Origin: a virus | IMG/VR virus record: IMGVR_UViG_3300017971_000185 | Coordinates: 186,001 to 250,000 of that record | Length of the DNA stretch: 64,000 nucleotides | Reading direction: 5' to 3' (one strand) | Shown here: piece by piece, positions 20,667 through 62,736 of the stretch | Numbering within the stretch: the stretch's first letter is position 1 | How the letters are laid out: every line of letters begins with the position of its first letter | Translations under genes and position numbers: made by a program | Notes under the pieces: model-generated | The model's input: only the letters and a program-made list of their open reading frames with translations | Told to the model about the DNA's origin: nothing | Database searches by the model: none

Positions 20667-20694
20667 TCTACGCAGGATTCAGCCAATAGTTTAC
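20667..20694 (-). promoter_or_regulatory. Bipartite GTAAACT-N14-GCGTAGA motif, copy 1
   Basis: On the minus strand GTAAACT and GCGTAGA are separated by exactly 14 nt, followed by AAGGG and the Shine-Dalgarno of the lipoprotein gene, which starts about 20 nt further on. Seven other copies share the same spacing and orientation relative to a gene start. Promoter or leader element inferred. Confidence 0.7.
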
Positions 20695-20774
20695 ATTTCG
20701 CTCGAATTTACACGTTCCGAGACAGATTTGGAAGGTTTGTGGCGACGTTGGCGCGTGTAGGTCTGGCCGGGCCT

Positions 20775-20803
20775 AATTTTCCTATGGGCTAGCCCTCAGT
20801 GAG
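20775..20803 (+). promoter_or_regulatory. Candidate second promoter class, ATTTTCCTATGGG element
   Basis: This stretch upstream of fibre D reads AATTTTCCTATGGGC, then TAGCCCTCAGTGAG. A close match lies at 33377-33406. It includes the palindrome GGGCTAGCCC. The start codon is 25 nt downstream. A late promoter is a guess based on two strong copies only. Confidence 0.4.
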
Positions 20804-20827
20804 CCTTCGCGGGCTTTCGGAGAGCCT

Positions 20828-23800
20828 ATGGCCCAGACTCCATTTCGCCAGCCCGGCAAAGACCTTGAGGTAACGGATGGGAACGTCATCACTGGCGCCG
20901 ATGACTCCCAGGGTGGGGACCTTACTCTTGAAGGCGGGACATCCTCTAGCGGGAACAACGACGCGGGCGATGTCGTCATCCGGCCCGGCCTTCCAAATGG
21001 CTCGGGTGCTCGCGGCATCGTCAATGTCACGAACAATGGGGGTGCTGATACAGATCCAATTCTTCAACTGACTTCCGAGACGGGAGCAAATGTTGAGGAT
21101 AGTCGCTTTTTCGTAGGGACACGAGATCCCCACACAAACGTAACTGGCAACCCTGGTGATGTCTACATCACACACAACGGCACCAGTAGTACGGTCAGCG
21201 TAAACACCGGGGCCGGGGACGCTAACACGACTTGGACAGATCTGGCGGGTGGAGGGACTGGCGGAGCAGATCCGGGCATAGAGGGGGTTCTTTGGGAAGA
21301 CATCCAGTTTTACCTCGACGCTGGGGACCGTAACTCATATCCCGGTTCCGGCTCGACCATAACGGATCTGATCGCTAGCAAGAGTTGCACGCTGTATTTC
21401 GTGACTATCACGGATAGTCACATCAACTTCAACGGCGTAAGCTCCTACCTCGACACCGGCACCCTGTCCGCTGCGCTCGTGAACCTCTTCGAAACGGGCG
21501 GGACGGTCGCCGCGTGGGTTCGTGCGGAATCAGATGGGGGAGGGAACGCGGGGCGTGTGGTGTCAACGACCGGTTCCGCAGACACGAAGGGCTGGTACTT
21601 GGATGTTAACGATGAGTCGTCCGGGCTTGTTCGTTTCAGATTTGAGCAGAACAGAGGCACGACAGACACGGTCTACACGACGTTCAGGACGGTCCCGATC
21701 AACGAGTGGGCTCATGTCGTCATCACCTACGACGGCAGCGACCCCGCGACGAAATTTCCGATCGCCTACATCAACGGTGAGCTAGTTTCCTGGGATTCAG
21801 AGACGGCGGGCTCTGGTGCCATTACGAGTGACTCAGGCGAGATCCTCTTCATCGGAAATCGGTGGGGCGCCGCTAGGACGTGGGACGGCGACATCGATCT
21901 GTTCCAACTTTGGGACCGTGTTTTGTCCGCCGATGAAGTCCGTCAGCTTTATCGAGTAACCGGCGAGGACCGATTCCGGCCTAGTTTGCTCGGAGACGCT
22001 GCTTCGACTTCTACTGGCGACGCTCCTGATGTCGAAATCAAGGCAGGCCCAGGAGGAAGTACGAGCGGTGCTGGAGGAGGCATCGCGCTGACGGCAGGAA
22101 CCACGACCGCCGGCTCGGGGGGAGGCATCACGATCACGGCCCAAGACGGCACGAGCGGAGCCGGAGACGTGATCCTCAATTCGGGGACGACTTCCTCTAG
22201 CGGTGATGGAGGAATCATCTCGTTACGTCCGGGCGTTGGCGCGGGGACAAACGACGGTTATGTCGACATTGATCCCGACTGGACCGGGGATGCGGATCCT
22301 CTCCTCCAATTCACGGTCACGGGTTCTAACGTTGACAACAACACTCAGATATTCACCGGGAACCGAAACCCCGATGGCTTCGTCACGGGAGAGTGTGGTT
22401 CCCTATACCTTCGCGGCAACACCGGGTCGAGCACGCTTTACGTCAATACGAGTGGGGCAAGCCCTGGGAGCACGTGGACGGAAATCGGTGCAGGGGGCTC
22501 TGGAGCGAGCGCGGGCATCGAAGGCGTTATCTGGGGCAACAACCAATTCTACCTCGATGCCGGCGACCGCAACAGTTACGCCGGATCGGGTAACACGTGG
22601 ACGGACATCGTTGGTTCTCGCGCCGCAACGATGACCAACCAGACCATCACTGATGGTCACATCATCTGGAACGCCAGTACGACCACGGCAACGTTCACTT
22701 CCGACTCCTCCATAGAAGACATTTGGAATGGGGGCGGTACGCTCATTGCTTGGGTTCGGGCAGATAGTTTTGGTGAAAGTAGCGTCGGTCGCATCGCGAG
22801 CACGGCGAACGCAGGTAACACCATAGGATGGTACGCAGGTGTTACGTCCGCTAGCGGCAACACCTGGAAGCTCTACTTCCGTCAGAATTTCGACAACACG
22901 GATGGCGAATGGCGCACGACCTCGACGGTAAACCTCAATGAGTGGTTGTTCTTTGCCATCACCTACGACTCTAGCTCTGCCAGTAACGAACCTACGCTCT
23001 ACATCAACACGGTTCTGGACACGACCGACGAGATAACCAACCCGATTGGCGATTACGGTTCTGAATCGGGAGCGGACTTGGACATTGGTCGTGCTGGAGA
23101 CGGCTCAGGAACGTGGGGTGGCGCGATCGAAATTGTCATGCTCTATGACACGGAGTTGTCTGACGATGCGATCCGTCAGATCTACAGTGTCACGGGGCAA
23201 GATCGTTTGCGGCCGAGTTTGATGGGCGCTCCCACGACGGACGCTAGTCGACCACCACAACCCATTCAAATTATTGCGGCTGATGGTGGGGCTACAGCCA
23301 GTGACGGAGGCGCGGTCGAAATCTCGTCCGGGGCTAGCACGACTGGTGCGGGGGGTGCTGTTTCGGTCACGGGTGGCGCGTCGGAAGGCGGCACCACGGG
23401 AGGAGACATATCGATCACAGGTGGAGACGTTGCAAGCACTAACTACAGTGCAGGTGATGTCACCATTAAGGGCGGCGATCTGGACTATTCGTCCGCGATT
23501 TCCCCAAACACGGGCGGAGACGTCACCCTCGAAAGTGGTTCGTATAGCGGGACAGGTTCGGCGCAGCCAGGCGGAATCACCATCAAGACGGGGACGGGAG
23601 GAACCAACAGCGCAGCCGCTCCCGATCTTCTTCTTCAAGTTACATCCTATGCTGGAAGCAGTGCCCTTGGAGACATCATCCTTCAAGGAGGAGACAACAC
23701 CGGGACAGGCGCAGCAGGGGGAATTCAGATTCTTGCCGGAGACGCTAGTGGTGATCCGGGTGGGGGTGTCACAATCACGGCGGGCGATGGGACCGGGGTA

Positions 23801-25345
23801 GGCGCGGTTGGGGGAGCCCTTAATCTGACTTCAGGCGGCGCGAGTGCGAGTTATACGGGCACGATCAACATTGATGTTCCGGCACAGTCTGCATCAGGCA
23901 GAGGCACGGGTGACATCAACATAACCATTGGAGACACTGCCTCCAATTACGGCTCGAATCCTTCGGGCGACATCAGTCTCACGGCAGGCGATCATACGGG
24001 CACGACGGGAACCGCTCAGGCTTCCAGCATCTTTCTCACAGCCGGGGATCATGCGGGAAATGAGAACAATGCGCCACCGGGCGATATCACCCTGAGCGCA
24101 GGAGATCAAACCGGAAGTGGTCGGGGTGCTGCTGGCGGCATCTACATTTGGGCTGGAGACAAGACAGGCGGCAGCCACAGTACTACGGCGGGTGGTCAGG
24201 TAGACATCGATGCTGGCGAGGGCAGTGGGGTAGGCCCAGGAGGGGCCGTCAGCATCACTGGCGGTTTAGCTGGCTCAACTGGAACCGGCGGCGGAGTTGA
24301 CATTGATGCAGGAGGATCTGGTACGGGAGCGACAGGTACGGGGGGAACGGTTGCCATCGATGGTGGGACCTGTAATGCGACGAATGGCGCAGGAGGCCCC
24401 GTCACCATCACGTCCGGTGCCGGTGCGGGGACGGGGAATGCTGGAGCCCTTGCGCTTAGCGGCAATGACGGAGGAGCCACGTCGGGTACAGGTGGAGATG
24501 CATCTCTGGGCGGCGGTGAAGGCGGCGGCACGGGTAGGGGAGGCAACCTTTCTCTTTTCTCGGGAACGGGTGGTGCGAACGGTGCGGGCGGGACGGTGTC
24601 GATCAACGCCGGGAGTGGCGGAGCTTCCGCGGGAGCATCGGGGACGATCACGATTTCCGGTGGCGATGGAGGCTCGGCGACAGTTGCAGGGGGAGCCGTT
24701 ACCTTTGAAGGAGGGGCTGGTAACACGACCGGAGCAGGGGGTCTTGCAACGGTTCAAGGAGGCACAGCAGGAGCTTCGGGGAATGGCGGCAGCGTAGCGA
24801 TTACGGCGCAAGATGGTGCTACGAATGGGGACGGTGGCAGTGTCACTGCGACCGCTGGTGGGGGTGCTGGGACCGGTGCCGATGGGAATGTCTCTGCCTT
24901 CGCGGACGACGACGGGTCCTTCCAGCATCGCACGCAGACGACGGGGTTCGCTGGAACGCAGTGCGACCACAAGACACTCGCGCTTCAAGCCTCTACGTCT
25001 GGCACGACTGTGTTAGCCGTGCTCGGGGTTCTGAGCACGGACGGCTTGAACATGAAATTCGACGTAAAATGTACGGGTGTCCGCGACTCCAACGACTCCG
25101 ATATCATCTCGATTTTCGCTGTGCAGACGGCGTATCGGGTTGGCGGTACGGTGTTTCTCTTGACGGCTCATGTCGATCCGACTTCGGCTCCCGGCAAGCA
25201 GACGAATGGTACGATTCCCTGGACGAACATCCAACTGGCCATCAACGGAGACAACATTGAGCTTCAAGCCACGGCCACGGCTGCCACGGGCGACTGGAAT
25301 TTCTCGATAGAGTGGACGCGACAGCTTGGCGGCTACTCCTCGTAA
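20828..25345 (+). CDS. Giant fibre-like protein D with two LamG-like domains (1505 aa)
   Basis: ATG after GGAGAG. Two modules of the form GDVYITHNG or GSLYLRGNTG ending in TWT(D/E) are each followed by a concanavalin/LamG-like jelly-roll domain (21280-21990 and 22520-23220). The two copies share FYLDAGDRNSY, a GG(T/V).AWVRA strand, a NEW...ITYD strand and a closing RQ(L/I)Y.VTG.DR.RPSL. LamG folds often bind glycans or proteins, which suits receptor binding. The remaining 700 residues are Gly-rich GG.(V/I).I.(G/A)G repeats, one block of which matches fibre B. The last 140 residues are a non-repetitive tip. No signal peptide. Confidence 0.83.
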   Translation: MAQTPFRQPGKDLEVTDGNVITGADDSQGGDLTLEGGTSSSGNNDAGDVVIRPGLPNGSGARGIVNVTNNGGADTDPILQLTSETGANVEDSRFFVGTRDPHTNVTGNPGDVYITHNGTSSTVSVNTGAGDANTTWTDLAGGGTGGADPGIEGVLWEDIQFYLDAGDRNSYPGSGSTITDLIASKSCTLYFVTITDSHINFNGVSSYLDTGTLSAALVNLFETGGTVAAWVRAESDGGGNAGRVVSTTGSADTKGWYLDVNDESSGLVRFRFEQNRGTTDTVYTTFRTVPINEWAHVVITYDGSDPATKFPIAYINGELVSWDSETAGSGAITSDSGEILFIGNRWGAARTWDGDIDLFQLWDRVLSADEVRQLYRVTGEDRFRPSLLGDAASTSTGDAPDVEIKAGPGGSTSGAGGGIALTAGTTTAGSGGGITITAQDGTSGAGDVILNSGTTSSSGDGGIISLRPGVGAGTNDGYVDIDPDWTGDADPLLQFTVTGSNVDNNTQIFTGNRNPDGFVTGECGSLYLRGNTGSSTLYVNTSGASPGSTWTEIGAGGSGASAGIEGVIWGNNQFYLDAGDRNSYAGSGNTWTDIVGSRAATMTNQTITDGHIIWNASTTTATFTSDSSIEDIWNGGGTLIAWVRADSFGESSVGRIASTANAGNTIGWYAGVTSASGNTWKLYFRQNFDNTDGEWRTTSTVNLNEWLFFAITYDSSSASNEPTLYINTVLDTTDEITNPIGDYGSESGADLDIGRAGDGSGTWGGAIEIVMLYDTELSDDAIRQIYSVTGQDRLRPSLMGAPTTDASRPPQPIQIIAADGGATASDGGAVEISSGASTTGAGGAVSVTGGASEGGTTGGDISITGGDVASTNYSAGDVTIKGGDLDYSSAISPNTGGDVTLESGSYSGTGSAQPGGITIKTGTGGTNSAAAPDLLLQVTSYAGSSALGDIILQGGDNTGTGAAGGIQILAGDASGDPGGGVTITAGDGTGVGAVGGALNLTSGGASASYTGTINIDVPAQSASGRGTGDINITIGDTASNYGSNPSGDISLTAGDHTGTTGTAQASSIFLTAGDHAGNENNAPPGDITLSAGDQTGSGRGAAGGIYIWAGDKTGGSHSTTAGGQVDIDAGEGSGVGPGGAVSITGGLAGSTGTGGGVDIDAGGSGTGATGTGGTVAIDGGTCNATNGAGGPVTITSGAGAGTGNAGALALSGNDGGATSGTGGDASLGGGEGGGTGRGGNLSLFSGTGGANGAGGTVSINAGSGGASAGASGTITISGGDGGSATVAGGAVTFEGGAGNTTGAGGLATVQGGTAGASGNGGSVAITAQDGATNGDGGSVTATAGGGAGTGADGNVSAFADDDGSFQHRTQTTGFAGTQCDHKTLALQASTSGTTVLAVLGVLSTDGLNMKFDVKCTGVRDSNDSDIISIFAVQTAYRVGGTVFLLTAHVDPTSAPGKQTNGTIPWTNIQLAINGDNIELQATATAATGDWNFSIEWTRQLGGYSS

Positions 25346-25356
25346 GGGAAGCAGAC

Positions 25357-25623
25357 ATGGCACACACGCAGTTTGAAAAAGACATGCTCACCAGAATCCA
25401 CAATGAGATTCAGCAGAGAAAGCGGCGTGGGAAGGCAAGCGCTCAGGACGACACCGACCTGGAAACGATCATGACGGGAACCGAGGCCGAGCGGCAAACG
25501 TTGATCACGAGTTACATCAACAACACCGGCATTCCTCTATGCGATGCTGAGATCGCTGACTGCGATGCGGCAAAGACGGCGGCACAGAGTCTCAAGGCTG
25601 ATATGCAGAGCTACGTGTCCTAG
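25357..25623 (+). CDS. Small helical protein, paralogue 1 (88 aa)
   Basis: Start ATG 25357 follows AAGGGAAGC; upstream in-frame codons belong to the fibre gene end. Sequence pattern MAHTQFEKDMLTRI, then Lys/Arg-rich, then EAERQTLI.SYI...G and LKADMQSYVS. The same pattern is found in the next gene, so the two arose by tandem duplication. Predicted all-helical, soluble. Position directly after fibre D suggests a fibre assembly partner, but no family is recognised. Confidence 0.75.
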   Translation: MAHTQFEKDMLTRIHNEIQQRKRRGKASAQDDTDLETIMTGTEAERQTLITSYINNTGIPLCDAEIADCDAAKTAAQSLKADMQSYVS

Positions 25624-25634
25624 GAGATCAAACA

Positions 25635-25904
25635 ATGGCGTTCACAAACTTCGAGAAACAGATGATCGACATCATTGATCAGCGTTGTCGTCGCGGATCG
25701 ACGGACGCCGCGAAGCGTACCGTGTACCAAGGCTACGAGGCGACTTTGCTCAAGGGCGATGAGGCCGAAGTGCAGGCGCTCATTGCTACTTTTATTGCCG
25801 ATGAGGGCATGGTACAAGAGACCACGAACCAGATCACCGTTCTCAATACCAAGGTCACTGAGTTGAATACGCTCAAGACCGACATGGCTGCCTACATCGC
25901 GTGA
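25635..25904 (+). CDS. Small helical protein, paralogue 2 (89 aa)
   Basis: Shares with the preceding gene the start (MAFTNFEKQMIDII), the middle (EAEVQALIATFIADEG) and the end (LKTDMAAYIA), while the regions between have diverged. Well-placed Shine-Dalgarno (TAGGAG). The stop overlaps the GTG start of the HAD gene by GTGA. Helical and soluble; unknown function. Confidence 0.75.
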   Translation: MAFTNFEKQMIDIIDQRCRRGSTDAAKRTVYQGYEATLLKGDEAEVQALIATFIADEGMVQETTNQITVLNTKVTELNTLKTDMAAYIA

Positions 25905-26431
25905 TTACTCGTCTCGCCATTTTCGACTTCGACGGCACGCTGTTCAATGCCCCCGAAATGCCGGGCGCTTCCGACAGTTGGTACGACAGTGTAGAGTCGT
26001 TGTCACCTCCCTGCGTGCCGCAGCGGCCGACTCCCGATTGGTATATCGGGTCGACCAAGAGTGCGTTCCAGAAGGTCAAGGGCGATCCCAAGACGCATGT
26101 TGCAGTCGTGACGGGTCGCGTCGAGCCTTTGCGAGCACGGGTCGCTGAGCTTCTGCGCATGGGTGGTTTAGTCCCCGATGACCTGTTTCTGCGAAGCGGA
26201 GGCGTCACGTTGCGCTACAAAATGGCGACTCTCCGATACTTGACGAACGCACTCCGCACACTCCAGACCATCGAAATCTGGGAAGACCACAAGCACAACC
26301 TAGAGCACATGGTGCGTTACGGAAACAAGATGGGGTACTCTTGCATACCTCACTTGGTTCGAGTGAAGCGGCGCGTTTGTCCGTCTCCTGTGAAAGTCGC
26401 TGAGCGAGCATTGCGCGCAAAGTTGCTATAG
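25901..26431 (+). CDS. HAD-superfamily hydrolase, Swiss-army-knife RNA repair-like
   Basis: GTG start in a GTGA overlap. Motif I DFDGTLF (residues 8-14) holds the nucleophile and acid/base Asp; VVTGR is the motif II Thr; IWEDH is the likely motif IV. The 176-aa length and the segment after motif I (DSWYDSVESL) fit the HAD_SAK type, which occurs in RNA-repair contexts and in phages. Likely activity is phosphatase on nucleic-acid or nucleotide ends; substrate unknown. A terminator follows at 26434. Confidence 0.8.
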   Translation: MITRLAIFDFDGTLFNAPEMPGASDSWYDSVESLSPPCVPQRPTPDWYIGSTKSAFQKVKGDPKTHVAVVTGRVEPLRARVAELLRMGGLVPDDLFLRSGGVTLRYKMATLRYLTNALRTLQTIEIWEDHKHNLEHMVRYGNKMGYSCIPHLVRVKRRVCPSPVKVAERALRAKLL

Positions 26432-26433
26432 GT

Positions 26434-26449
26434 GGGGCAGATCTGCCCC
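26434..26449 (+). terminator. Palindromic hairpin terminator after HAD gene
   Basis: GGGGCAGATCTGCCCC is a perfect 16-bp palindrome, followed by CTTTAG, three bases after the HAD stop codon. The T-tract is short, so termination may be partial. Confidence 0.65.
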
Positions 26450-26512
26450 CTTTAGTCGGTAAATTTGCGCTGTGCATGCTCAGAACAGCACCCTACGGTG
26501 TAGAGCAGGGAG

Positions 26513-26558
26513 CACGGTTTCCGGTTTATAGGTTCCACCTACCTGTACACATACCGTG
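26513..26558 (+). other. Leader hairpin upstream of membrane peptide
   Basis: CACGGT (26513-26518) pairs with ACCGTG (26553-26558), and inside it AGGT (26530-26533) pairs with ACCT (26537-26540). The element ends ten bases before the ATG of a 27-codon ORF. The 120-nt region 26450-26567 contains no other gene. Possible regulatory leader. Confidence 0.4.
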
Positions 26559-26567
26559 TGAAGTCCG

Positions 26568-26651
26568 ATGCGAGACAGCATTGCCATCAAGATCATTCTT
26601 GCAGGATTAGGGTTGCTGTTCGTGATTCAGCTTACGCACTGCTTAGCTTAG
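26568..26651 (+). CDS. 27-residue single-pass membrane peptide
   Basis: ATG 26568 opens 27 codons: MRDSIAIKI followed by a hydrophobic stretch (ILAGLGLLFVIQL) and a short tail THCLA. One transmembrane helix is expected. The Shine-Dalgarno is weak. It lies just upstream of an exported cell-wall-type protein, so it could be a small holin- or antiholin-like peptide, or not expressed. Too short for homology judgement. Confidence 0.4.
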   Translation: MRDSIAIKIILAGLGLLFVIQLTHCLA

Positions 26652-26672
26652 TGTCTCAAACCAGGAGTCTGT

Positions 26673-28040: not shown

Positions 28041-28087
28041 GTTGTCTTCTGGAGTATACAGGAGTGTGGCCGATCTGAGGAAGAGTC

Positions 28088-28822: not shown

Positions 28823-28850
28823 GTCAACTTTTCGCGGAATCTCGCGTAGA
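28823..28850 (+). promoter_or_regulatory. Bipartite motif, copy 2
   Basis: GTCAACT (28823-28829), 14 nt, GCGTAGA (28844-28850), then AAGGG and ATG at 28860. It immediately precedes an HD-hydrolase N-terminal fragment and the unit that follows. Confidence 0.68.
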
Positions 28851-28859: not shown

Positions 28860-28982
28860 ATGACGAGTGCCCGAGATTTCGCGATCAAGGCCCACGGGGA
28901 CCAGAAGTACAACTCTGAGCCCTACAGCGTTCATCTCGATCAGGTTGCGCGGCTCGTTTCGCGAGGCAGCGTACCTGCCTGA
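28860..28982 (+). pseudogene. N-terminal fragment of a ppGpp-hydrolase-like HD protein
   Basis: ATG 28860 follows AAGGG and motif copy 2. The 40-residue product starts ARDFAIKAHGDQKY, continues PYSVHLDQVARLV and then stops. This is the start of RelA/SpoT- or Mesh1-like HD hydrolases (A..FA..AHGDQ.Y..PY..HL..V). The HD metal-binding part is missing. Beyond base 28955 coding continues in a frame shifted by one base. It is either a decayed remnant of a (p)ppGpp hydrolase, a frameshifted gene, or a small peptide kept for another reason. N-terminal identity is fairly sure; its present function is not. Confidence 0.6.
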
Positions 28983-41736: not shown

Positions 41737-41764
41737 ATGCACTTTTGGTAGATTCTGGCGTAGA
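41737..41764 (+). promoter_or_regulatory. Bipartite motif, copy 3
   Basis: ATGCACT (41737-41743), 14 nt, GCGTAGA (41758-41764), then a second GCGTAGA seven bases later, and ATG 41775. Precedes the FHA gene. Confidence 0.65.
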
Positions 41765-41774
41765 GGGCGTAGAG

Positions 41775-42914
41775 ATGAAGGTTCTCAAGCTACAGATCTT
41801 CCATGGCAACGAGATGAAGGAATGGCGCACGATCGAGGACGACGTGACCAAGATCGGGACGCTCCAGTCCTCGCACATCCAGCTTGAAGGGCTAGCGCGC
41901 ATGCACGCGGTGATCGAGCGCAGCACGGACACGTTCCGGCTCATCGATCTCGGCGGCGTGCCTCCGACTTTCGTCAATGGCGAGCAGATCAGGCAGGCCG
42001 AGATTCAGAATGGCGACATGATCCACTTCGGTCGAGAGGGTCCGTGGAGTATGCGCGCGACCATCGAGACAGCCGTCGAGGTTGACGTGGACCGCAAGCC
42101 GGAGGCCCCTGACTCTTTGTCACGGGATGAGCTTTTCGAGACTTTCGCCAACGCAGCCCAACGACGCAAGGAGCGAGAGGACAAGGAGGATATTCCAGAC
42201 GATGAGCTTTTTGATCATTACTATCGCAAGTACCAACGTCGTAAGGCTCAGGAGCAAGAGCGCGAGAAGGACTCGGGGCAAGAGAAGTTGTTTGAGAGCC
42301 TGTGCGAACAGATGGAGGAGCTTGTAGAGGAGCGCTCAGAAGACCAGAAGAATGACATTACACGGATGCTTACCCAGGTGAAGTCTCTGTGGAAGAGCAA
42401 GGATCCTGAAAGAAAGCAAGATCAGATCCGACGCCTTGAGGATATTATTCAGGCTCTCAAGCAAGACAGGCAAGAGAAGGAGCAGATGGCGCACGCTTTG
42501 ATCGATGCCACGAGCCAAATCATTGCGGAAGGCACGATGGAAGAGGCGTTCAAGATCTCCGAAGAAGAGGCGCTTGAGAAAGCCGCCGATCTCGTCATGG
42601 AGGTCAGTCAGTACAAGGATGCCCTCGGTCTCCTTCAGGTGTTTTCTGGGCCAAAAGAAGGCGGAGCAGGGGACAAGAAAGTCTTTCTCAAGGGGAAACA
42701 TCTCTTGGAGAAACAATTGTCGGGGGAGGTCGCTAGAAAGAGTCTGTTCTTGAGTCTCTACATCGCGCGGGCAGGCGGCTGGACGTGGGAGCAACAACAA
42801 AAGGAAATGCTGAAAGCGCGGCGTAACCTGACTGAGGAGGAGCTTCAAGTGCTTGAAAACCATCCCGCAGTCAAGAAGGTTTTTGAAGCCATGGAGAGGC
42901 AGAGCGGTAGCTAG
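41775..42914 (+). CDS. FHA-domain protein with coiled-coil (379 aa)
   Basis: ATG 41775 chosen from its place after motif copy 3; the in-frame ATG 41745 lies inside the motif. Residues 20-95 form an FHA domain: IGTLQSSHIQLEGLARMHAV, then FVNGEQI and NGDMIHFG. FHA domains bind phosphothreonine. The usual SR.H is here AR.H. Residues about 110-260 are charged and coiled-coil, and a helical C-terminal domain follows. As myxobacteria have many Ser/Thr kinases, binding a host phosphoprotein is plausible. Confidence 0.82.
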   Translation: MKVLKLQIFHGNEMKEWRTIEDDVTKIGTLQSSHIQLEGLARMHAVIERSTDTFRLIDLGGVPPTFVNGEQIRQAEIQNGDMIHFGREGPWSMRATIETAVEVDVDRKPEAPDSLSRDELFETFANAAQRRKEREDKEDIPDDELFDHYYRKYQRRKAQEQEREKDSGQEKLFESLCEQMEELVEERSEDQKNDITRMLTQVKSLWKSKDPERKQDQIRRLEDIIQALKQDRQEKEQMAHALIDATSQIIAEGTMEEAFKISEEEALEKAADLVMEVSQYKDALGLLQVFSGPKEGGAGDKKVFLKGKHLLEKQLSGEVARKSLFLSLYIARAGGWTWEQQQKEMLKARRNLTEEELQVLENHPAVKKVFEAMERQSGS

Positions 42915-46093: not shown

Positions 46094-46279
46094 TCATGGG
46101 ATCCTCCCCTCGACACGATTGTGATAGTCTGCCCGTGCCTTCAAGTAGTCCGCGACTGCGCGGCCGAGCGGCGTGCGCCGTCCACCCCGCTGCACGAGAC
46201 CGGCAGCGACAAGGGCATCAAGATCGACGCCATACAGGACAGCGCGCGCGTCGTCGGTGACTTGGATGATGATGCTCAT
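46094..46279 (-). CDS. Small winged-helix-like protein (61 aa)
   Basis: ATG 46279 overlaps the stop of the membrane peptide (TAATG). Contains YGVDLDALVAAGLVQRGGRR then TPLGRAVADYLKARA, a helix-wing-helix-like pattern. Possible small regulator. Confidence 0.6.
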   Translation of the reverse strand: MSIIIQVTDDARAVLYGVDLDALVAAGLVQRGGRRTPLGRAVADYLKARADYHNRVEGRIP

Positions 46280-46389
46280 TACTTCGTCCCACTCACGAAG
46301 ATCAGCACCTTGCCGAGCAGCCAAAGGCCGAGTCCGGCCGGGATGCAAATGACCGCGGTAAGTACGAGCAGACTGAGGATCGCTTCCAT
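46279..46389 (-). CDS. 36-residue membrane peptide, first gene of minus cassette
   Basis: ATG 46389 behind GAGAGGGTGAA and motif copy 4. MEAILSLLVLTAVICIPAGL continues into GLWLLGKVLIFVSGTK: one or two transmembrane segments. Stop overlaps the next start (TAATG), supporting expression. Role unknown. Confidence 0.6.
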   Translation of the reverse strand: MEAILSLLVLTAVICIPAGLGLWLLGKVLIFVSGTK

Positions 46390-46398: not shown

Positions 46399-46426
46399 TC
46401 TACGCGGGATTCCGGCGAAAGTATAT
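46399..46426 (-). promoter_or_regulatory. Bipartite motif, copy 4
   Basis: Minus strand: ATATACT, 14 nt, GCGTAGA, then GAGGG and ATG 46389. Faces copy 5, about 60 bases away on the + strand, giving divergent units. Confidence 0.68.
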
Positions 46427-46489: not shown

Positions 46490-46517
46490 ATGCACTTTTC
46501 CTTCGATTCCGCGTAGA
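46490..46517 (+). promoter_or_regulatory. Bipartite motif, copy 5
   Basis: ATGCACT (46490-46496), 14 nt, GCGTAGA (46511-46517), then GAAAGAGGG and GTG 46534. Same left half as copy 3. Confidence 0.65.
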
Positions 46518-46533
46518 CACGAAAGAGGGATTG

Positions 46534-46977
46534 GTGCGCAAACCGCACAAAGGCACCTTACGAGCACTCGCCAAACGATTCCGGGCTTGGCTCGTCACGC
46601 TTCCTCAGATCGCCTCTTTCGATGAGGATCTCTGTGGGGCGTGTGCGATTGCTTCGGATGGTCTGGCTCGCTTTCTTCGTAAAGAAGGTTTCGACGCTTG
46701 GTTTGTCGAGGGCCAGTACGTTCCTTGCGCCAACAGCACTCGGTCAGAGGACTTTTACGGTGCCGAGACCAACCATTGTTGGGTCGAGGTTGGTCGGAAG
46801 TGGATCGTGGACATCACTGCTAGGCAGTACAGTGGGCGATTCCCCGAGGTCTACATTGTGCCCACAGAGCATGAGGACTATCATAGATTCCGGCGAGGGC
46901 CGTATGCTCTTCGATGCGTGCGGCGGGAGTGGCCGAAAGACCACCATCCACTCGGTCGAAAGCTACGCATCAGGTAG
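46534..46977 (+). CDS. Transglutaminase/papain-like Cys-His-Asp protein
   Basis: GTG 46534 (or TTG 46531) chosen from its place after motif copy 5 and GAGGG; the frame is open further upstream. Motifs LCGACAIAS (C34, C37), TNHCWVEV (H81) and IVDITARQY (D93) form a catalytic triad of the transglutaminase-like superfamily in the usual order. The protein (147 aa) is one compact domain. Could be a protease, peptidase or amidase; substrate unknown. It leads the unit with the polynucleotide kinase. Confidence 0.7.
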   Translation: MRKPHKGTLRALAKRFRAWLVTLPQIASFDEDLCGACAIASDGLARFLRKEGFDAWFVEGQYVPCANSTRSEDFYGAETNHCWVEVGRKWIVDITARQYSGRFPEVYIVPTEHEDYHRFRRGPYALRCVRREWPKDHHPLGRKLRIR

Positions 46978-55258: not shown

Positions 55259-55260
55259 CC

Positions 55261-55751: not shown

Positions 55752-55775
55752 CCGCAGTGGAGGCACTGGTAGACT

Positions 55776-55919: not shown

Positions 55920-56110
55920 CGCTCAGCTACCGTACTCCGAAATCTACTCAAAGGTAAGCATCGGATTCGAGGCTGTGCCGGTCTCGCCTTGGCGGCGATG
56001 CTCCGGTAGTGAGCCTCCGGCCTGACGGTTCAGGCGCCTTGGTATGAGTCCTGCGGAACTGTCCCGACGACGCCGGTATCGCCCTCGCAGCAACTCCCCC
56101 ACGTCTCGGT
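55920..56110 (-). ncRNA. Putative omega/reRNA at the 3' end of tnpB
   Basis: In IS605/IS1341 elements a guide RNA overlaps the tnpB 3' end and runs to the right end. Here the last 170 bases of the gene and 24 bases beyond hold short inverted repeats (for example CCTGAA/TTCAGG-type and GGCGG/CCGCC pairs). No guide boundary can be fixed from one sequence. Confidence 0.3.
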
Positions 56111-57362
56111 GATGATCGTCGAGACCGACCTGTTCGTCCTGAGAACGTCTCAGCAGGTTGATCCCTCCCACCACGTCGGCATGAGAACGTCTACCGCAAC
56201 TGCGGCAGACGAAATCGATTCCTGATCGGTTCCGTCGAGAAACGTAACCACAGGAGGGGCAAGTCTGGGACGTGTACGCCGGGTTCACCTTGATCACCGC
56301 TGCCTTCGTCTCCAAAGAGTGGGCCAAGGCCCGGTAGGCGAACCTCTTCTGTCCCCGACATCCTTGAAGGTCGAGATCTTCGATCACGAACACGGTGCCC
56401 TTCGGCGCATCACGGACCAGCTTGTTCGCCGTCTCTCCCGTGATGGTTTTCACCATCCCGGTGAGCTTCGACTCCAAGCGGTCGAGCCGAGGGCTGTTCT
56501 CCTTGAAACCTTGGCGCTGTCGGTTCGCACGAAGGTTCCTGACGCGTTCGTAGAGCCTGTCGAATTTGGGTTTGAGGTCGGCACCGAACGTTCGGCCGTC
56601 AGACGTGGCCGCCACCACGTTCAGGCCGACATCGACACCGATTTTAGGAGCATCTGGCTGAGGCTCGGGGACGACCCACTCCTTCTTCTCGACAACCTCG
56701 AACCGCCATCGGCCCCGCTTGTCCTTGCGAGCGTGGACTCCCTTCGACACGTCCGAAGAGGACCCGACGTAAGGATTTCCGTTCAGCGGAAGCCAGATGA
56801 CTTTCCGGCTGACCAACGTGGAGATCTTGATCCACATCGGAGCCATCGCAGCTTCGTTGGCGTCGGCCAGCGTGCAGGTGTTCTCCGACATCCGCATGGG
56901 GATACGGTCAGACACTCTCGGCGGGTTCCCGGAGACCTCGGGGTCGAGGAGAAGTTTCCAGTAGGCGTCGATGGCTTCCTGGGTGACATGCTTCCAAGGA
57001 ACGGAGATCAGGTGCTTGCCCACGGTGCAGAGGGCATGTCGCTCATCTTGGGAGATCTGGCCGAACCTATGGAGACGGGTGAGGTGCTTCTTGATGGCAC
57101 GCTCGTAGGTTGCCTTGGCCCAGGTACTTACGATCTGGATGGCGTGGTCTCGTGCGTTCTTCTGGATCTGGGACGTGAGCTTTTCAGCCTTTGGGAAGAA
57201 GGCTTGTTTCTTGGACCGCTTGAGGTTGAGCCTCCGGCCATCGAACATCGCCTGCACGCAAATACGGACGTACTTGACGTACTCCACATGCAGGGCCTCC
57301 AGGGCAGCGACCTTGCCTTGGTTGGTCTCCGGGTGGAGATAGAGGTGGCGTGACTTCTTCAC
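55944..57362 (-). mobile_element. tnpB: TnpB, IS200/IS605-family RNA-guided nuclease
   Basis: GTG 57362, 472 aa. RuvC-type catalytic residues are all present: GVDVGLN (D244), FVIEDLDLQG (E328) and HADVVGGINL (D396), with the zinc ribbon CPSCG...CRSCG (C368, C371, C386, C389) between the last two. The N-terminal part is the usual TnpB helical and beta-barrel region. TnpB is a programmable DNA nuclease that helps the element persist. No tnpA is nearby, so it is a lone TnpB (IS1341-like). It lies between a zinc-ribbon gene and a minus-strand operon. Confidence 0.92.
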
Positions 57363-57493
57363 GAAAAACGGTAGTTTAGCATGGAAACGGGCGGTAGGTT
57401 CTCTCAGGAATGCTTAGGTTTACTGGGATTTGGCGTCAACAGTTCGCAACCCCGATACTCCTTCAGCACGGTGACCTTGGGAGTTGCGCTTTT

Positions 57494-58558
57494 CTATTGG
57501 AGAAGAGGCAGGATCTTGTCCCGAGCCTCGGGATGCTCGTAAGCAAGTCGGATGAGAGCCTTCCGCAGACTCCCTTCCTTCTTGAGCTTGCTCTTGTGCT
57601 TCTCCTTGTATTTTTTCTGCTTGTCCTCGGCAAGCGGTTCGCCTTGGAAGTCGGCTTGATAGACACCGGGTTGGGACGCTGCTTCATGGAGCAGATCGTC
57701 CATGTCCATGTCAATCACTACGACTTCCATGGTGCGCTTGGGATCGATTGTGAGCACGGCTGCCCAACGGTGGTGTCCGTCGAGGATGTAGCCGTCGCGT
57801 GAGATCATCACCTTGGGTTCTTCGGTCAGCGCGTTGAATTTGCCTTTGAGATGGGCGTCTGCGATGCCGAAGGTCTTGGCCGCCTTGATCTCTTTCTGCG
57901 TGGCCTTTAGCTCTCCAACACGAACGCGGGATTGCTTCGATCCGGCTCCCGCTTCCTCGAAACGGTCGAGCATCTGACGCATGATGGGGCGGTCGTCATC
58001 GGGATCGGCTCCCGCCTGGACCATCGCCTGACCTTTCTTGCGCTCTAGCTCGTCATCGGAATCGAGCATCTCGCGGACTGACTTGCCGCCTTCGATCTGG
58101 GGCATCTTGTCTCGCGTGAGCCCTTTGTTCTCGACACAGACGGGAGGGCTCATCTTGCAGACATCGGCGCCAGCTTCAATGCCTTCCCTGACTTTCTGGG
58201 CGATCTCGGCAGCCTGGATCGCGTCGTCTCCGACAATCTCCAGGTTGTACTCTTTGATGGCTTCGCGATGCTCTTTCGGCAAGTCCTTGGGTTCCGCAGG
58301 AGGCTTGCCTTTGCGCTTTTCGAGCATCTTCTCGCCTCCTTTGGGGCTCTCCACGGGGATCTTCTCCGTGTCTGCTGGGCCTTTCTTCTCCTCTTTCGGC
58401 TTGCCCTTGGTCTTTTTCTCCGCGACTGTGTGAGCCTTGGGATCGGCGTCGGGGTGCTCCTCAAGATACTTCTTGAGTGCCTTCTCGGTGGGAAACTCCC
58501 CGGCCTCTCGCTCCATTCGAAGAGCGAGCACACGAGCCTGCTGGCGAAGATCGTGCAT
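57494..58558 (-). CDS. ParB/sulfiredoxin-like protein with charged linker (354 aa)
   Basis: ATG 58558 directly after the previous stop. Residues 40-100 are a Lys/Glu/Pro-rich linker. Residues about 205-290 form a ParB-like domain: RVRVGELKATQKEI, then ISRDGYILDGHHRWAAVL (DGHHR 260-264) and MEVVVIDMDMDDLL. The last 25 residues (LRKALIRLAYEHPEARDKIL) repeat the start of the upstream gene. Such phage proteins are common, often near virion genes; nucleotide binding or nuclease activity is possible. Confidence 0.75.
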   Translation of the reverse strand: MHDLRQQARVLALRMEREAGEFPTEKALKKYLEEHPDADPKAHTVAEKKTKGKPKEEKKGPADTEKIPVESPKGGEKMLEKRKGKPPAEPKDLPKEHREAIKEYNLEIVGDDAIQAAEIAQKVREGIEAGADVCKMSPPVCVENKGLTRDKMPQIEGGKSVREMLDSDDELERKKGQAMVQAGADPDDDRPIMRQMLDRFEEAGAGSKQSRVRVGELKATQKEIKAAKTFGIADAHLKGKFNALTEEPKVMISRDGYILDGHHRWAAVLTIDPKRTMEVVVIDMDMDDLLHEAASQPGVYQADFQGEPLAEDKQKKYKEKHKSKLKKEGSLRKALIRLAYEHPEARDKILPLLQ

Positions 58559-58915
58559 CTAGCTCAGCTTGCCAATGACGTTTCGGATGCGCTCACGCAA
58601 TTGTCGAAGCTGCCTGAATCCGAAATTCATGTTGGCTGGTGCGCCGTGGGTCATGTCTGTCTCGATTGCGTCCATCAATCGTCCACAAACATCAGCGAGG
58701 ATCATCATCCGCATTCTCGGTTGCTTCGGCATGGCTTGCCGTAGCAGTGGGATGATCTCTTGGATCTGATCCTTGATTTTGTCGCCCGCCGTCTCCTCGG
58801 GTAGCTCCTCTGAGTACCCTTCCTTGATTAGCGGAAGAACCGCGTCCCGAACCTCACCGGGGTTCTCGTGAGCCAGTCGGATCAGGGCTTTGCGTAGTTC
58901 TTGCGAGTCAGCCAT
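58559..58915 (-). CDS. Small helical protein with LRKALIRLA motif (118 aa)
   Basis: First gene of the minus operon. N-terminal LRKALIRLAHENPGEVRDAV recurs at the end of the next protein. The rest is helical and Met/Arg-rich. It could pair with the ParB-like protein or both could carry a sorting tag. No bipartite motif is seen upstream. Confidence 0.7.
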   Translation of the reverse strand: MADSQELRKALIRLAHENPGEVRDAVLPLIKEGYSEELPEETAGDKIKDQIQEIIPLLRQAMPKQPRMRMMILADVCGRLMDAIETDMTHGAPANMNFGFRQLRQLRERIRNVIGKLS

Positions 58916-59012
58916 CTCACCGGAGTCAGATCCATAGCCAAATCAATGGCGGCGTATGCGCAGGCGCTCCAAGGCAGCTAGCGGGGCGGTAGAAGAGATA
59001 ATCGGCCGTAAG

Positions 59013-59040
59013 GTAAACTTCTTGCTGAATTTCGCGTAGA
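59013..59040 (+). promoter_or_regulatory. Bipartite motif, copy 6
   Basis: GTAAACT (59013-59019), 14 nt, GCGTAGA (59034-59040), then ATG 59054. Divergent from the minus operon. Confidence 0.68.
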
Positions 59041-59053
59041 GAAATCGCAAGCC

Positions 59054-59479
59054 ATGGGTACGTCAAAGATCACGGCGAAGGATTGTCGCAAGTGTGGCTT
59101 GTGTTGCGTCTCTCTACACGATCAAGATGCTTTGGCCGACGTGACTCAAAAAGACATGGACCGACTCAATCCTCGTTGGGCTTCCGCTAACGTCCTAGCC
59201 ATGTCTTCGTTCGATTTTGTGGTGGCTGCCGTGAATGGGCGTCGTCTGCCGCCGGGTGCTATCCGAACCAAGTGGAAGCTCCAACGATGTGGCCCGCTTC
59301 GGGGCGTAGCGGCGTGTGCTTGCGTGGCTCTCCGAGGGTCTGTACTACACCGCACGTCGTGTTCGATCTACAAGAGACGCCCGGATAGTTGTCGGACAGC
59401 CGTGAAACCAGGAGACCAGGCTTGTTTGGAGATCCGGCGACACTGGTCAGAACATGTACAAGAGGTATGCGATGACTGA
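59054..59479 (+). CDS. YkgJ-type cysteine-cluster protein (141 aa)
   Basis: CRKCGLCC (C11, C14, C17, C18) at the N-terminus, then CGPLRGVAACACVAL, SCSIYKRRPDSCR and a last Cys: the Cys pattern of the zinc/iron-chelating YkgJ family. Metal-cluster binding likely; function of the family is little known. First gene after motif copy 6. Confidence 0.82.
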   Translation: MGTSKITAKDCRKCGLCCVSLHDQDALADVTQKDMDRLNPRWASANVLAMSSFDFVVAAVNGRRLPPGAIRTKWKLQRCGPLRGVAACACVALRGSVLHRTSCSIYKRRPDSCRTAVKPGDQACLEIRRHWSEHVQEVCDD

Positions 59480-60224
59480 CGTGTGGTACGACACTCGTGA
59501 AGGTTTGCAGGCGCGGCTGGAGAGCGGTCTTCCGGGTTTGCGAGAGATCGCCAAGGCTCGCCATGAAGCACACTACGACCGTGGTGAAACCATGAAGTCG
59601 TGGTGCCTCCTGGGCATCTTCTTTGCGGACAGCCTGGGAAACCTCTCGTTGATTACTGAGGGCGCTCCGGCCGATGCCTTCCTCGACTACCGAGAGCCGC
59701 CCGTGCCTGTTGTGATGCTGCGGGAAGAGATGGGAAGGTACACACAGCGTTGGGTGGCTACCCACGGATCATGCATTCCGCCAGGAGACGACCGGTGTGA
59801 TCGGTGTGGCCGTGGCTGGACTGTGAACAACGTGCGTGACTTCATCGATCGAGAGCCTAAGTCTCCACGACACTTGGCTTGTCATCGACTGGCGATCATC
59901 GAAGGTGAACGGCGGGACATGGTGGAGATCGTGAAGCGTTCGGAGATTCCGTACACGGACCTTTACATGATCCCGAACGAGTACGTACCAAACTCCGATC
60001 ACTACGGACCTTGGGTCATGGTGGTGACGGCGGTCGGCCGCATCAAGATTGGATGGCGCTTGCGAGTCATCCAGATCGATTGGAGCGAAACGGCTCTTGC
60101 AGCGACGGGCGATGTCGTGGTTGAGAAGCCAAACGTGACTCACGGACCCAAATACGTTCACGCATGGAGCAAGGACAAAGCCGTCGAGGCTCTCCGCAAA
60201 CTGTGGAACGGAGGGACTAGCTGA
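59472..60224 (+). CDS. Hypothetical protein with CxxC pair (250 aa)
   Basis: ATG 59472 overlaps the previous stop. CDRCGRGWTVNNVRDF near residue 120, then IPNEYVPNSDHYGPWVMVVT and GRIKIGWRLRVIQIDWSE, a pattern I associate with phage and bacterial proteins of unknown role. Ends before motif copy 7. Confidence 0.7.
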   Translation: MTDVWYDTREGLQARLESGLPGLREIAKARHEAHYDRGETMKSWCLLGIFFADSLGNLSLITEGAPADAFLDYREPPVPVVMLREEMGRYTQRWVATHGSCIPPGDDRCDRCGRGWTVNNVRDFIDREPKSPRHLACHRLAIIEGERRDMVEIVKRSEIPYTDLYMIPNEYVPNSDHYGPWVMVVTAVGRIKIGWRLRVIQIDWSETALAATGDVVVEKPNVTHGPKYVHAWSKDKAVEALRKLWNGGTS

Positions 60225-60228
60225 GCCT

Positions 60229-60256
60229 GTATACTTTTTGGGGATTTTTGCGTAGA
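60229..60256 (+). promoter_or_regulatory. Bipartite motif, copy 7
   Basis: GTATACT (60229-60235), 14 nt, GCGTAGA (60250-60256), then GGAGACAAC and ATG 60266. The start codon is only nine bases after the motif. Confidence 0.68.
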
Positions 60257-60265
60257 GGAGACAAC

Positions 60266-60994
60266 ATGGGAAAGCTGTTCAAATTCTTGGGGGGCGACTG
60301 CGATTGGGCCACTTACGGAGGAAAGTGGTATCGCCAGACTGGTGACAACACCTACCACGTCATTGAGTTGTTCAACTGGGAAGAAGCATGCGGAAGAGAC
60401 GCACCAGACGACACCTATCATGTGGGTCTGAGCGAAGTGGACATTTCTGATTTGGAGCGCGTCCAAGAAGCCTTGTCCTCATGCGGATGGAAACTAAGTC
60501 TTGTTTCGACGGGCGGCGCCGTGTTGTCTGGCCTGCGTGTGGTAGTCGTTGACGACTACAGCGGAGACTGCGTCGCAACGCACAAAAGCACGGTTCGTTT
60601 GTGTCTTGTGGAGGCGCTTCACAGCTATGGTGCGAAAGCGCCACTCGGTCAGTGGAATGGAAACAACCACGCAGTGCTACGGCGGCAAGCTCGGGAGTTG
60701 TCCTTAGAGCTTGACGATCCTACGAAGTACGAGGCAGCCATGGAGAAGCCGGTGAACCAAATCGGCTCGTCTGCACGAGAGTATCAACGAGGAGACATCC
60801 AAGCCGCAGTGAGGCGCGGCGTCAAGGCCGGGAGTGTGGAGGCAGAAATCATCCACAAGATGCAGTTGGCAACCGAAGGACACACTCTAGGTGGCAAAAC
60901 CATTCCAGGCTATGGTTGCGCTCCTTGTCCGGCTTGCGGACAGACTACGTGCGACCCAAATTCATGTCCAGAGTGGGTTGGGGCAACAAAATGA
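60266..60994 (+). CDS. Hypothetical protein with C-terminal Cys motif (242 aa)
   Basis: ATG 60266 fixed by GAGGAG and motif copy 7. N-terminal GDCDWATYGGKWYRQ and VIELFNWEEA; C-terminal CAPCPACGQTTCDPNSC may bind zinc. Function unknown. Confidence 0.68.
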   Translation: MGKLFKFLGGDCDWATYGGKWYRQTGDNTYHVIELFNWEEACGRDAPDDTYHVGLSEVDISDLERVQEALSSCGWKLSLVSTGGAVLSGLRVVVVDDYSGDCVATHKSTVRLCLVEALHSYGAKAPLGQWNGNNHAVLRRQARELSLELDDPTKYEAAMEKPVNQIGSSAREYQRGDIQAAVRRGVKAGSVEAEIIHKMQLATEGHTLGGKTIPGYGCAPCPACGQTTCDPNSCPEWVGATK

Positions 60995-61317
60995 GCGCGT
61001 TCATGATTCCCGAGTACGACCACGGCGTGTTCTGGAGCGTCGAGAGCGAGAAGGGATGGTCCACGCTCGTGCCTGGACATCTTGTTGGCTCCGATCCTGC
61101 TCTACAGGACTTCACGGACTACACCGAATGCGGCGAGCCCCTGTCTTTCGAGAAGGCGGAAGGCTGGTTTGCTCGCTTGTCTGCGCCGGGCTACCTGGAC
61201 TCGACCGACTGGAGTGGCCCTTTCGAGACGGAGAAGGAAGCCCGCGAACACGTCAGGGACTTCTACGAAGTAGACGATGACACGGGAGAATGCCTCGATG
61301 AGCATAACCAAGATTGA
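60991..61317 (+). CDS. Hypothetical protein (108 aa)
   Basis: ATGA overlap. LSAPGYLDSTDWSGPFETEK and REHVRDFYEVDDDTGE; small alpha/beta protein of a type seen in phages. Overlaps the next gene by 20 bases. Confidence 0.68.
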   Translation: MSAFMIPEYDHGVFWSVESEKGWSTLVPGHLVGSDPALQDFTDYTECGEPLSFEKAEGWFARLSAPGYLDSTDWSGPFETEKEAREHVRDFYEVDDDTGECLDEHNQD

Positions 61318-61783
61318 CCTTCGCCCCATCTGCCGAAATGCAGACAAGGTTGATTGCCTCGTTACGATGCGTGAGGGAGGCCGCGAACAAGAGTGGCTGC
61401 ATCTTGGCGCTGTCAGCTTGACGGAGCGTGGCATCCTGAATGCACGCATGGACAAGGGAGCCACCGATTTCGAGCACGATTCGGCTTACGCTTGTTGTCT
61501 TCCGCTGATCGGCGTGAAGATGGAATACATCGACAGCCACGTGACCATCCTGACTGCGTGGATCAATCCGCAGCATGAGCCGTTTTCACCCGAATTCAAC
61601 GTGCCGCCCTCGGACTACAACCCGATGGAGCATCCAGACACGGTCATGTGTGATCAGTGCGAGGAGCCACATCCCATCGTGCCAGAGGGATTCTACACGC
61701 CGCCTTTCGATGAGGAGCTTTTCGAGGCTGTTCGTGGCAAGAAGGTAACCATCTACATTGGGCCCGTGTGGCCGGAGGAGTGA
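61298..61783 (+). CDS. Hypothetical protein (161 aa)
   Basis: ATG 61298. A beta-rich centre (YACCLPLIGVKMEYIDSHVT) and CDQCEEPHPIVPEGFY near the end. Stop overlaps the next ATG (TGATG). Unknown. Confidence 0.65.
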   Translation: MSITKIDLRPICRNADKVDCLVTMREGGREQEWLHLGAVSLTERGILNARMDKGATDFEHDSAYACCLPLIGVKMEYIDSHVTILTAWINPQHEPFSPEFNVPPSDYNPMEHPDTVMCDQCEEPHPIVPEGFYTPPFDEELFEAVRGKKVTIYIGPVWPEE

Positions 61784-62076
61784 TGTCTATTCAGGTTGAA
61801 GACAAGACAGAGATCGAGTGGGGCCATTGCGTCGATTGGGGACGTGTCAACGAGGCTGGCGTCTGCTGGTGTCATCGGAACGACGGGCTCACTAGGCGCG
61901 TTGCACTGGTAGTCCGGCAGAAGCCCGGCAAGTACCGTCTGAGTTGCTATCCCGACTGGCGTCTGGTAGGTGCCCAAGATGGGCTCTCCTTGCGTAGCGC
62001 GGTGAGGAAGGCATATCGTTTCATACGGTTCAACAACGACGTGTATTTGTGGGGCGGACAGGAGTTGCAGTCGTGA
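61783..62076 (+). CDS. Hypothetical protein (97 aa)
   Basis: TGATG overlap. Trp/Cys-containing (CVDWGRVNEAGVCWCHRNDG), then KYRLSCYPDWRLVGAQDGLS. Unknown; resembles small single-domain phage proteins. Confidence 0.65.
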   Translation: MSIQVEDKTEIEWGHCVDWGRVNEAGVCWCHRNDGLTRRVALVVRQKPGKYRLSCYPDWRLVGAQDGLSLRSAVRKAYRFIRFNNDVYLWGGQELQS

Positions 62077-62117
62077 AGCCGAAGATCGAACAACTAGAAG
62101 GTCGTGGAGGTAAATGA
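62073..62117 (+). CDS. Possible 14-codon leader ORF
   Basis: GTG in a GTGA overlap; product MKPKIEQLEGRGGK. It ends in TGATG with the next gene and spans that gene's Shine-Dalgarno (GGAGG), so its translation could couple the two. No direct evidence of expression. Confidence 0.25.
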   Translation: MKPKIEQLEGRGGK

Positions 62118-62428
62118 TGTCGAATCCCCACTGTAGTCCGAGGTACATCGAGACGGCGCAAAACAAGATCGAGGGGGCCAAGGGTGTTCTTGACCGTGCG
62201 AGTCGGGAAGTGTCGGAGCGGTACCAGAAGGCGAAGGAAGAGGCTCAGGCTCGGTTTGAGGAGACGGTTCGCCCGTACAGAGAAGAGTGCAAGCGACGAG
62301 AGGCCGAGGCAGCCAAGGTGCTTCTCGCTGAGCTAGACGAGATCGGAGAGGCATGGCAACGGGAGGCGAAGGAAGTGGATGAAGCCTTCATGCGCACGGT
62401 AAGAGAAGCCAAAGGAGAAGAAGCATGA
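62117..62428 (+). CDS. Coiled-coil protein (103 aa)
   Basis: Start at ATG 62117 (TGATG) or the ATG three bases earlier. Long charged helix (SREVSERYQKAKEEAQARFE, continuing to REAKGEEA). Unknown; perhaps a scaffold or antirepressor-like protein. Confidence 0.6.
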   Translation: MSNPHCSPRYIETAQNKIEGAKGVLDRASREVSERYQKAKEEAQARFEETVRPYREECKRREAEAAKVLLAELDEIGEAWQREAKEVDEAFMRTVREAKGEEA

Positions 62429-62685
62429 CGCGCACCGAGCACTATCGGCCGGACGAGATCTTCATTGTGAAGGTCCAGCTTTCGGTGATGACCATGTATG
62501 AGGAACCCATCTTTCTGGTCTACGATGAGCACAGGATCATCATGGACCAATTCCCGCAGTCGGAGCTTCCCGAGCTAGCCGAGGCGATGGGAAAGGACTT
62601 GAAGCGGTTTTTCTACGCCGACATCTCAGAGAAAGGGCTGCTCAACATCAATACCCTGGATCCTGTTCCCTGGCAGGACTGGTGA
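62425..62685 (+). CDS. Hypothetical protein (86 aa)
   Basis: ATGA overlap. VYDEHRIIMDQFPQSELPEL and KRFFYADISEKG; small alpha/beta protein. Last gene before motif copy 8. Confidence 0.65.
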   Translation: MTRTEHYRPDEIFIVKVQLSVMTMYEEPIFLVYDEHRIIMDQFPQSELPELAEAMGKDLKRFFYADISEKGLLNINTLDPVPWQDW

Positions 62686-62708
62686 CGCGCATCTGGCGCG
62701 CCTCCTCT

Positions 62709-62736
62709 GTAAACTCTCGGCGGAATCCCGCGTAGA
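62709..62736 (+). promoter_or_regulatory. Bipartite motif, copy 8
   Basis: GTAAACT (62709-62715), 14 nt, GCGTAGA (62730-62736), then TGGGATGGAGAG and ATG 62753. Confidence 0.68.

Follow-up and report, generated by a model that had tools for sequence, protein, structure and literature searches.

Very large phages without an RNA polymerase of their own must redirect that of the host, and how the uncultured ones do so is poorly known. The locus described here raises the question through a bipartite sequence that stands in front of genes on either strand: what is this sequence, and what reads it? The window, i.e. the whole analysed stretch of 64,000 nucleotides (G+C 56-64%), corresponds to bases 186001-250000 of the 497,194-bp virus record of a giant phage (G000). 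A search of the window with the pattern RTNNACT-N14-GCGTAGA returned eight matches against 0.00 expected (100 shuffles), precisely at the places and on the strands reported by the initial annotation (Table 1), and GCGTAGA by itself occurred 15 times compared with 5.4 expected.

Table 1. Copies of the bipartite element in the window, with putative transcription start sites and the genes that follow.
Copy (strand)	Left box, -35-like	Right box, -10-like	Putative start site	Gene served	Remark
20667..20694 (-)	GTAAACT 20688-20694	GCGTAGA 20667-20673	~20660	lipoprotein, 19866-20651(-)	
28823..28850 (+)	GTCAACT 28823-28829	GCGTAGA 28844-28850	~28857	312-aa ORF starting at 28867 (GTG)	
41737..41764 (+)	ATGCACT 41737-41743	GCGTAGA 41758-41764	~41771	FHA-domain protein, 41775-42914	second GCGTAGA at 41767-41773
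46399..46426 (-)	ATATACT 46420-46426	GCGTAGA 46399-46405	~46392	36-aa hydrophobic ORF, 46279-46389(-)	divergent partner of 46490(+)
46490..46517 (+)	ATGCACT 46490-46496	GCGTAGA 46511-46517	~46524	148-aa ORF, 46531-46977 (TTG)	divergent partner of 46399(-)
59013..59040 (+)	GTAAACT 59013-59019	GCGTAGA 59034-59040	~59047	CxxCxxCC-family protein, 59054-59479	
60229..60256 (+)	GTATACT 60229-60235	GCGTAGA 60250-60256	~60263	ATG 60266	putative start 3 nt before ATG, would be near-leaderless
62709..62736 (+)	GTAAACT 62709-62715	GCGTAGA 62730-62736	~62743	ATG 62753 (GGAG just upstream) or ATG 62741	

The full 497,194-bp record contains 30 exact copies (22 forward and 8 reverse), and the reversed pattern used as a control has none. 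Relaxed matching added about ten more, among them those at record positions 11018(-), 264113, 296700, 307426(-), 314514, 387061, 389661 and 496670(-), bringing the total to approximately 40. When a weight matrix built from the 30 copies was run over ~240 kb of the record, the scores were cleanly bimodal: 37 sites reached at least 16.2 bits, the next score was 7.7, the best score on the reversed sequence was 9.0 bits, and the sites within the window were the eight only. The exact 14-base spacing noted in the initial annotation holds well beyond the window, since the boxes are separated by N14 in 30 copies, by N13 in two, and by N21 and N23 in one each, the last two both being by-products of adjacent copies; no other spacing between 9 and 23 was found. 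The shorter core AAC-N16-CGTA occurs 51 times, compared with 11-25 times at other spacings.

The placement of the copies relative to gene starts is not random across the genome: an ATG-initiated ORF of at least 50 aa begins 5-24 bases downstream of 24 of the 30 copies, compared with 9.4% of random positions. The start codon had been placed 9-20 bases downstream of each copy; in the window it lies 9-16 bases away, except that for the copy at 62709 the distance is 4 or 16 depending on the start chosen, and genome-wide the distance from GCGTAGA varies from 6 to 23 bases. Both in G000 and in a distant relative, G002, copies of the element (record position ~336929, L020 ~2930; L051) seem to follow immediately on a tRNA-like sequence, at its 3' end.

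The genes downstream of the copies encode an NAD-dependent DNA ligase, PARP-catalytic, FHA, DnaJ, PcfJ-like, DUF932-like and CxxCxxCC proteins, a divergent AAA_5/VWA pair, the lipoprotein, and many small ORFs of unknown function, and no recognisable structural gene was found among them. The matrix gave no hits in three sampled motif-poor stretches (95-115, 400-420 and 425-440 kb), and beyond 390 kb of the record there is a single copy with at most two mismatches. From the set of genes served and the hit-free stretches it follows that the element marks one expression class, that of non-structural genes, and the statement that the genome owes its unit structure to this element was too broad for ~40 sites. 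The PARP-catalytic protein (record 142025-143722; L013:4026-5723) has 565 aa and, by eye, a WGR-like N-terminus, and is conserved in G002, G005, G006 and LR756511. In the lipoproteins (that of the window and L086), the lipobox is followed by long acidic, Ser/Thr- or Gly-Asp-rich segments, a build that is reminiscent of Myxococcota and that may hint at the host.

Alignment of the 30 copies gave the consensus (W)GTAAACT-TYY-N4-GRATYYC-GCGTAGA-GRGG-N-Y/R, so that conservation goes further than was seen at first: the spacer opens with TYY and closes with GRATYYC, and the right box is followed by GRGG and then by a Y/R step. The strict AAC of the left box is present in 21 of the 30 copies, the remainder having TAC or CAC, and the third base of this box is variable; the A and the C were fixed by the search pattern, yet they were also kept in the relaxed search. 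GCGTAGA was likewise part of the pattern, and its CGTA is retained in nearly all copies found by the relaxed search. GRGG separates GCGTAGA from the Y/R step, whose two bases lie 6 and 7 positions beyond that box; a pyrimidine is found there in 24/30 copies and then a purine in 27/30, although in many copies these purines also belong to Shine-Dalgarno sequences. Judged by its letters, the core AAC-N16-CGTA has the geometry of promoters of ECF (group 4) sigma factors, with AAC in the -35 position and a -10 of the CGT type.

In view of these features, the elements are very probably ECF-geometry promoters. The initial annotation had proposed that the whole might be a phage-specific promoter, and the consensus, the fixed spacing and the Y/R step all support that proposal. 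Each copy would be a complete promoter of a phage-specific class, in which GTAAAC serves as the -35 and CGTAGA, spanning roughly -12 to -7, as the -10, with TYY and GRATYYC forming a conserved spacer and GRGG the discriminator. The Y/R step, seven bases beyond GCGTAGA, would be the start of transcription. Together with GRGG, the step fits a +1 that puts CGTAGA at -12 to -7, and on this numbering GTAAAC falls near -34 and CGTA at -12 to -9. We infer that the leaders are very short or absent, with messages beginning 0-17 nt before the start codon, so that the Shine-Dalgarno sequence would lie at the 5' end or the message would be essentially leaderless. At record positions 146318 and 260854 the start codon coincides with the putative +1, and several other copies, including that at 60229 of the window, leave 3-4 nt. 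A Shine-Dalgarno sequence is present in 17 of the 18 predicted leaders of at least 9 nt and in one of the 14 of at most 7 nt, which is largely a consequence of length.

As for the protein that reads the element, the initial annotation had envisaged a phage sigma factor or RNA polymerase. A candidate for the former, an ORF of 375 aa, was found outside the window, at record positions 293800-294927. Within the protein, GYDPEDVLQEIYRGLLTRNKGKCPWDGRKSTFGFYVTMVCRCVLTNYHRKQSRR forms a region-2-like block, and a helix-turn-helix lies at the C terminus. In single-sequence scans it scored 14.9 bits against Pfam and 26.3 bits against TIGR02937, below the curated cut-offs of Pfam and NCBIfam, respectively. 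A profile of four homologous sequences matched the sigma-H structure 3mzy in the PDB over regions 2 to 4 (E=1.7e-6), and TIGR02937 (sigma70-ECF) was matched by 4/4 homologues. The core modelled from the four sequences consists of three helices, a linker and four helices (pLDDT 68). The top eight matches to it in the PDB were sigma factors without exception, most of them ECF, with marginal E-values; the full-length AlphaFold model of the 375-aa protein was poor (pLDDT 51). Together, the profile and fold searches support the prediction that this ORF codes for an ECF-like sigma factor with regions 2 and 4, although a very divergent one. No relatives of it were found in the bacterial genomes searched. 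Residues 22-86 of the sigma-like protein (L032:10001-10261) form an N-terminal beta-rich domain (YRSARRLLKAITG...FGAYFR) that is common to the G002 and G003 homologues and is not recognised by Pfam. A 77-base repeat, 98.7% identical, lies near the sigma gene at record positions ~295268 and ~298969 (L018:7269-7345 and 10970-11046).

The connection between this sigma and the element is circumstantial. The sigma gene itself has no copy of the element and is preceded by an intrinsic-terminator-like hairpin; lacking the element, it could be expressed first, and its product could then switch on the scattered non-structural genes. The most likely reader would be the host RNA polymerase core carrying the 375-aa ECF-like sigma of the phage, and for the reading as a whole, i.e. 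promoters of ECF geometry read by this protein, we estimate a probability of roughly 0.7. The record encodes several proteins with sigma-like parts, and those with region-4-like domains could also take part. One protein of 204 aa (record 432225-432839; L024:1363-1977) has the sigma region 4 domain twice and lacks region 2.

An RNA polymerase of the phage itself was not recovered: no match to the beta subunit (PF00562), the sole subunit family searched, was found in the record, which may be incomplete, and the control genomes were all positive. Promoters of the phiKZ/AR9 type, used by jumbo phage RNA polymerases, were considered and set aside, since a phage multisubunit enzyme was not indicated by PF00562. 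No second dominant promoter motif was found in G000. Separately, an intergenic palindrome, GGGCAGATCTGCCC, was observed at 26435-26449 of the window and at L015:916, L018:5362 and L069:272; it often stands 10-30 bases after CTATAG, and both sequences recur in the record.

Further insight came from related phages. In a motif scan of viral contigs, matches were limited to near-identical assemblies of the same phage (G001, G004 and others), which have the same copies and add little. A second phage species is represented by G005, a 72.5-kb contig whose PARP protein is 70% identical to that of G000. Three copies lie in it within 5 kb of sequence. Their boxes are spaced by N14 exactly as in G000, the right ones reading GCGTAGA or ACGTAGA and the left ones GTTCACT/GTGCATT, and a start codon follows after 6-9 bases. 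Two copies scored 18.5 and 17.3 bits, where the control reached at most 10.1, whereas the third was weak (5.5). No sigma gene was seen in this 72.5-kb fragment, and no recognisable element lies right upstream of the orthologous PARP gene in G005 or in G006. In the distant relative G002 (618,736 bp), whose sigma is 38% identical, the element in its G000 form is absent, and a counterpart, GTAAAWNNTTC-N8-CATG, which was found solely via its GTAAA half, occurs 12 times compared with once in the control. The left half is kept, the right half is different, and the spacing is approximately 3 bp shorter. The constancy of spacing among relatives, which the initial annotation had regarded as decisive, thus holds in the nearer G005 and fails in the distant G002.

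The counterpart precedes orthologues of element-served genes in 4 of 12 cases, compared with 4 of 258 background ORFs (p=1.5e-4); for two of the four, AAA and PARP, the start codon used in the comparison lies 53 and 75 bases away. The four orthologues are the AAA (40%) and VWA (37%) proteins of the same divergent pair, the PARP protein (55%), and an SNF2-like protein (30%). A fifth counterpart precedes a lipoprotein of similar build to that in the window, and the earlier proposal that the lipoprotein and the minus-strand cassette belong to the same control system is supported. A reasonable reading of these comparisons is that sigma and promoter have co-diverged between G000 and G002; it is not proof, since G003 (a 58-kb fragment) and LR745208 encode sigma homologues and the element was not detectable in either. 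Orthologues of the element-served genes were not found in LR745208, and de novo enumeration of bipartite motifs in stretches of LR745208 and G002 revealed no dominant motif. In LR745208.1 (loci L046, L057 and L058), TGTAA stands ~12-13 bases before several start codons and is possibly the -10 element of leaderless transcripts.

The same promoters could alternatively be read by a host ECF sigma exploited by the phage, which we regard as unlikely. The core of the element does match bacterial ECF promoters (PMC7083833), the phage sigma is too divergent for its specificity to be predicted, and its homologues are present in relatives without the element. However, the stringent element had no matches in one genome each of ~85,000 bacterial and archaeal species, a set from which the host may be absent and a search in which a host regulon may not share the spacer, and divergence between G000 and G002 has affected the element as well as the phage sigma, while the genes served are orthologous.

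Much less probable is that the left box is a -10 (TATACT/TAAACT) read by the host sigma-70, with GCGTAGA as a conserved element of the 5' leader, acting for example in translation, a possibility raised in the initial annotation alongside the remark that this is not a normal sigma-70 promoter. TATACT is indeed contained in GTATACT, and a Shine-Dalgarno-like sequence follows GCGTAGA in many copies. Nevertheless, positions -45 to -5 relative to GTAAACT hold almost no information apart from a few A/T-rich positions, and the alignment gave no signal for a sigma-70 -35 upstream of the left box (a TTGACA-like box 16-18 bp before a TATAAT-like box), which argues that GTAAACT is not a -10 with a preceding -35 and bears out that remark. 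Position 5 of the hexamer in the left box is an invariant C. The right box is tied to the left box, 14 bases away and 21 bp from start to start (two helical turns), and not to the start codon; with one distance fixed and the other variable, the simplest view is that a single complex recognises both boxes as DNA. Moreover, the Y/R step and the G-rich discriminator sit where the start would be expected if GCGTAGA were the -10. About as improbable is that a phage regulator binds to the element and acts on an overlapping ordinary promoter: the strongly conserved GRATYYC half-site of the spacer exceeds the needs of a minimal ECF promoter and the phage encodes further small proteins with region-4-like helix-turn-helix domains, but the copies are accompanied by no other conserved promoter signal, and the element is nearly always aimed at a gene a few bases from its start codon, leaving no space for a downstream promoter.

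A broader hypothesis may tentatively be put forward, to which we assign somewhat less than even odds: that very large phages possess an undescribed family of ECF-like sigma factors, fused to an N-terminal domain that family libraries do not recognise, which controls a scattered non-structural regulon through a promoter whose spacer is itself read. The messages would begin at the start codon or a few bases from it, and the specificities of sigma and promoter would have co-diverged between phage lineages, with regulon membership partly conserved. The analysis provides a promoter matrix, a named candidate sigma, and partly conserved targets (the AAA/VWA pair, the PARP protein and the SNF2-like protein). 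With these, metagenomic genomes can be searched for expression classes, and pairs of relatives can serve to study how sigma and promoter co-diverge. With their putative starts so close to the start codon or on it, the messages would form a natural near-leaderless set.

Among known systems, the promoter of B. subtilis SigW has the form TGAAAC-N16-CGTA. EcfG promoters have the form GGAAC-N16-CGTT with a near-invariant AAC (PMC7083833). The phage element shares with these bacterial ECF promoters the AAC-N16-CGT(A) core and the -35/-10 arrangement; it differs in its occurrence in a phage genome, in a GTAAACT with variable third and fourth bases, in the additional GRATYYC and GRGG, and in predicted leaders of 0-17 nt. 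In a survey of 224 jumbo phages, the sigma factors of the group 2 phages, which lack an RNA polymerase, were minimal helix-turn-helix or RpoD-like proteins (PMC7824862). Our phage resembles this group in being large, having no RNA polymerase of its own that we could recognise, and encoding sigma-like proteins, whereas its candidate sigma appears to be ECF-like, is extended by a long N-terminal part, and on its own stays below every curated family cut-off. Promoters dedicated to a phage-encoded sigma, which is a candidate here, are also known from phage phiEco32, but those of its gp36 consist of a single element, tAATGTAtA, without a -35, and gp36 has no region 4 (PMC8948821).

The closest described promoters are the late promoters of Salmonella phage 7-11, GTAAtg-(16)-aCTA, which are read by the phage's own sigma SaPh711_gp47 and have start sites 6-9 bp from the element (PMC8948821). 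Both promoters are bipartite, have a GTAA left box and 16 bases between a six-base left and a four-base right box, and lie upstream of phage genes, and both phages encode a sigma having region 4, that of 7-11 working with the bacterial core polymerase. Here, in contrast, the right box is CGTAGA instead of aCTA, the spacer is conserved, ~40 sites are present compared with 8 in 7-11, and non-structural genes are served; homology between the phage sigma and SaPh711_gp47 was not detectable by profile comparison (hhalign probability 0.6%). By analogy, the system of the giant phage may work like that of 7-11, from which it would differ in that its sigma is divergent and ECF-like, its sites are far more numerous, its spacer is conserved, and its leaders are very short.
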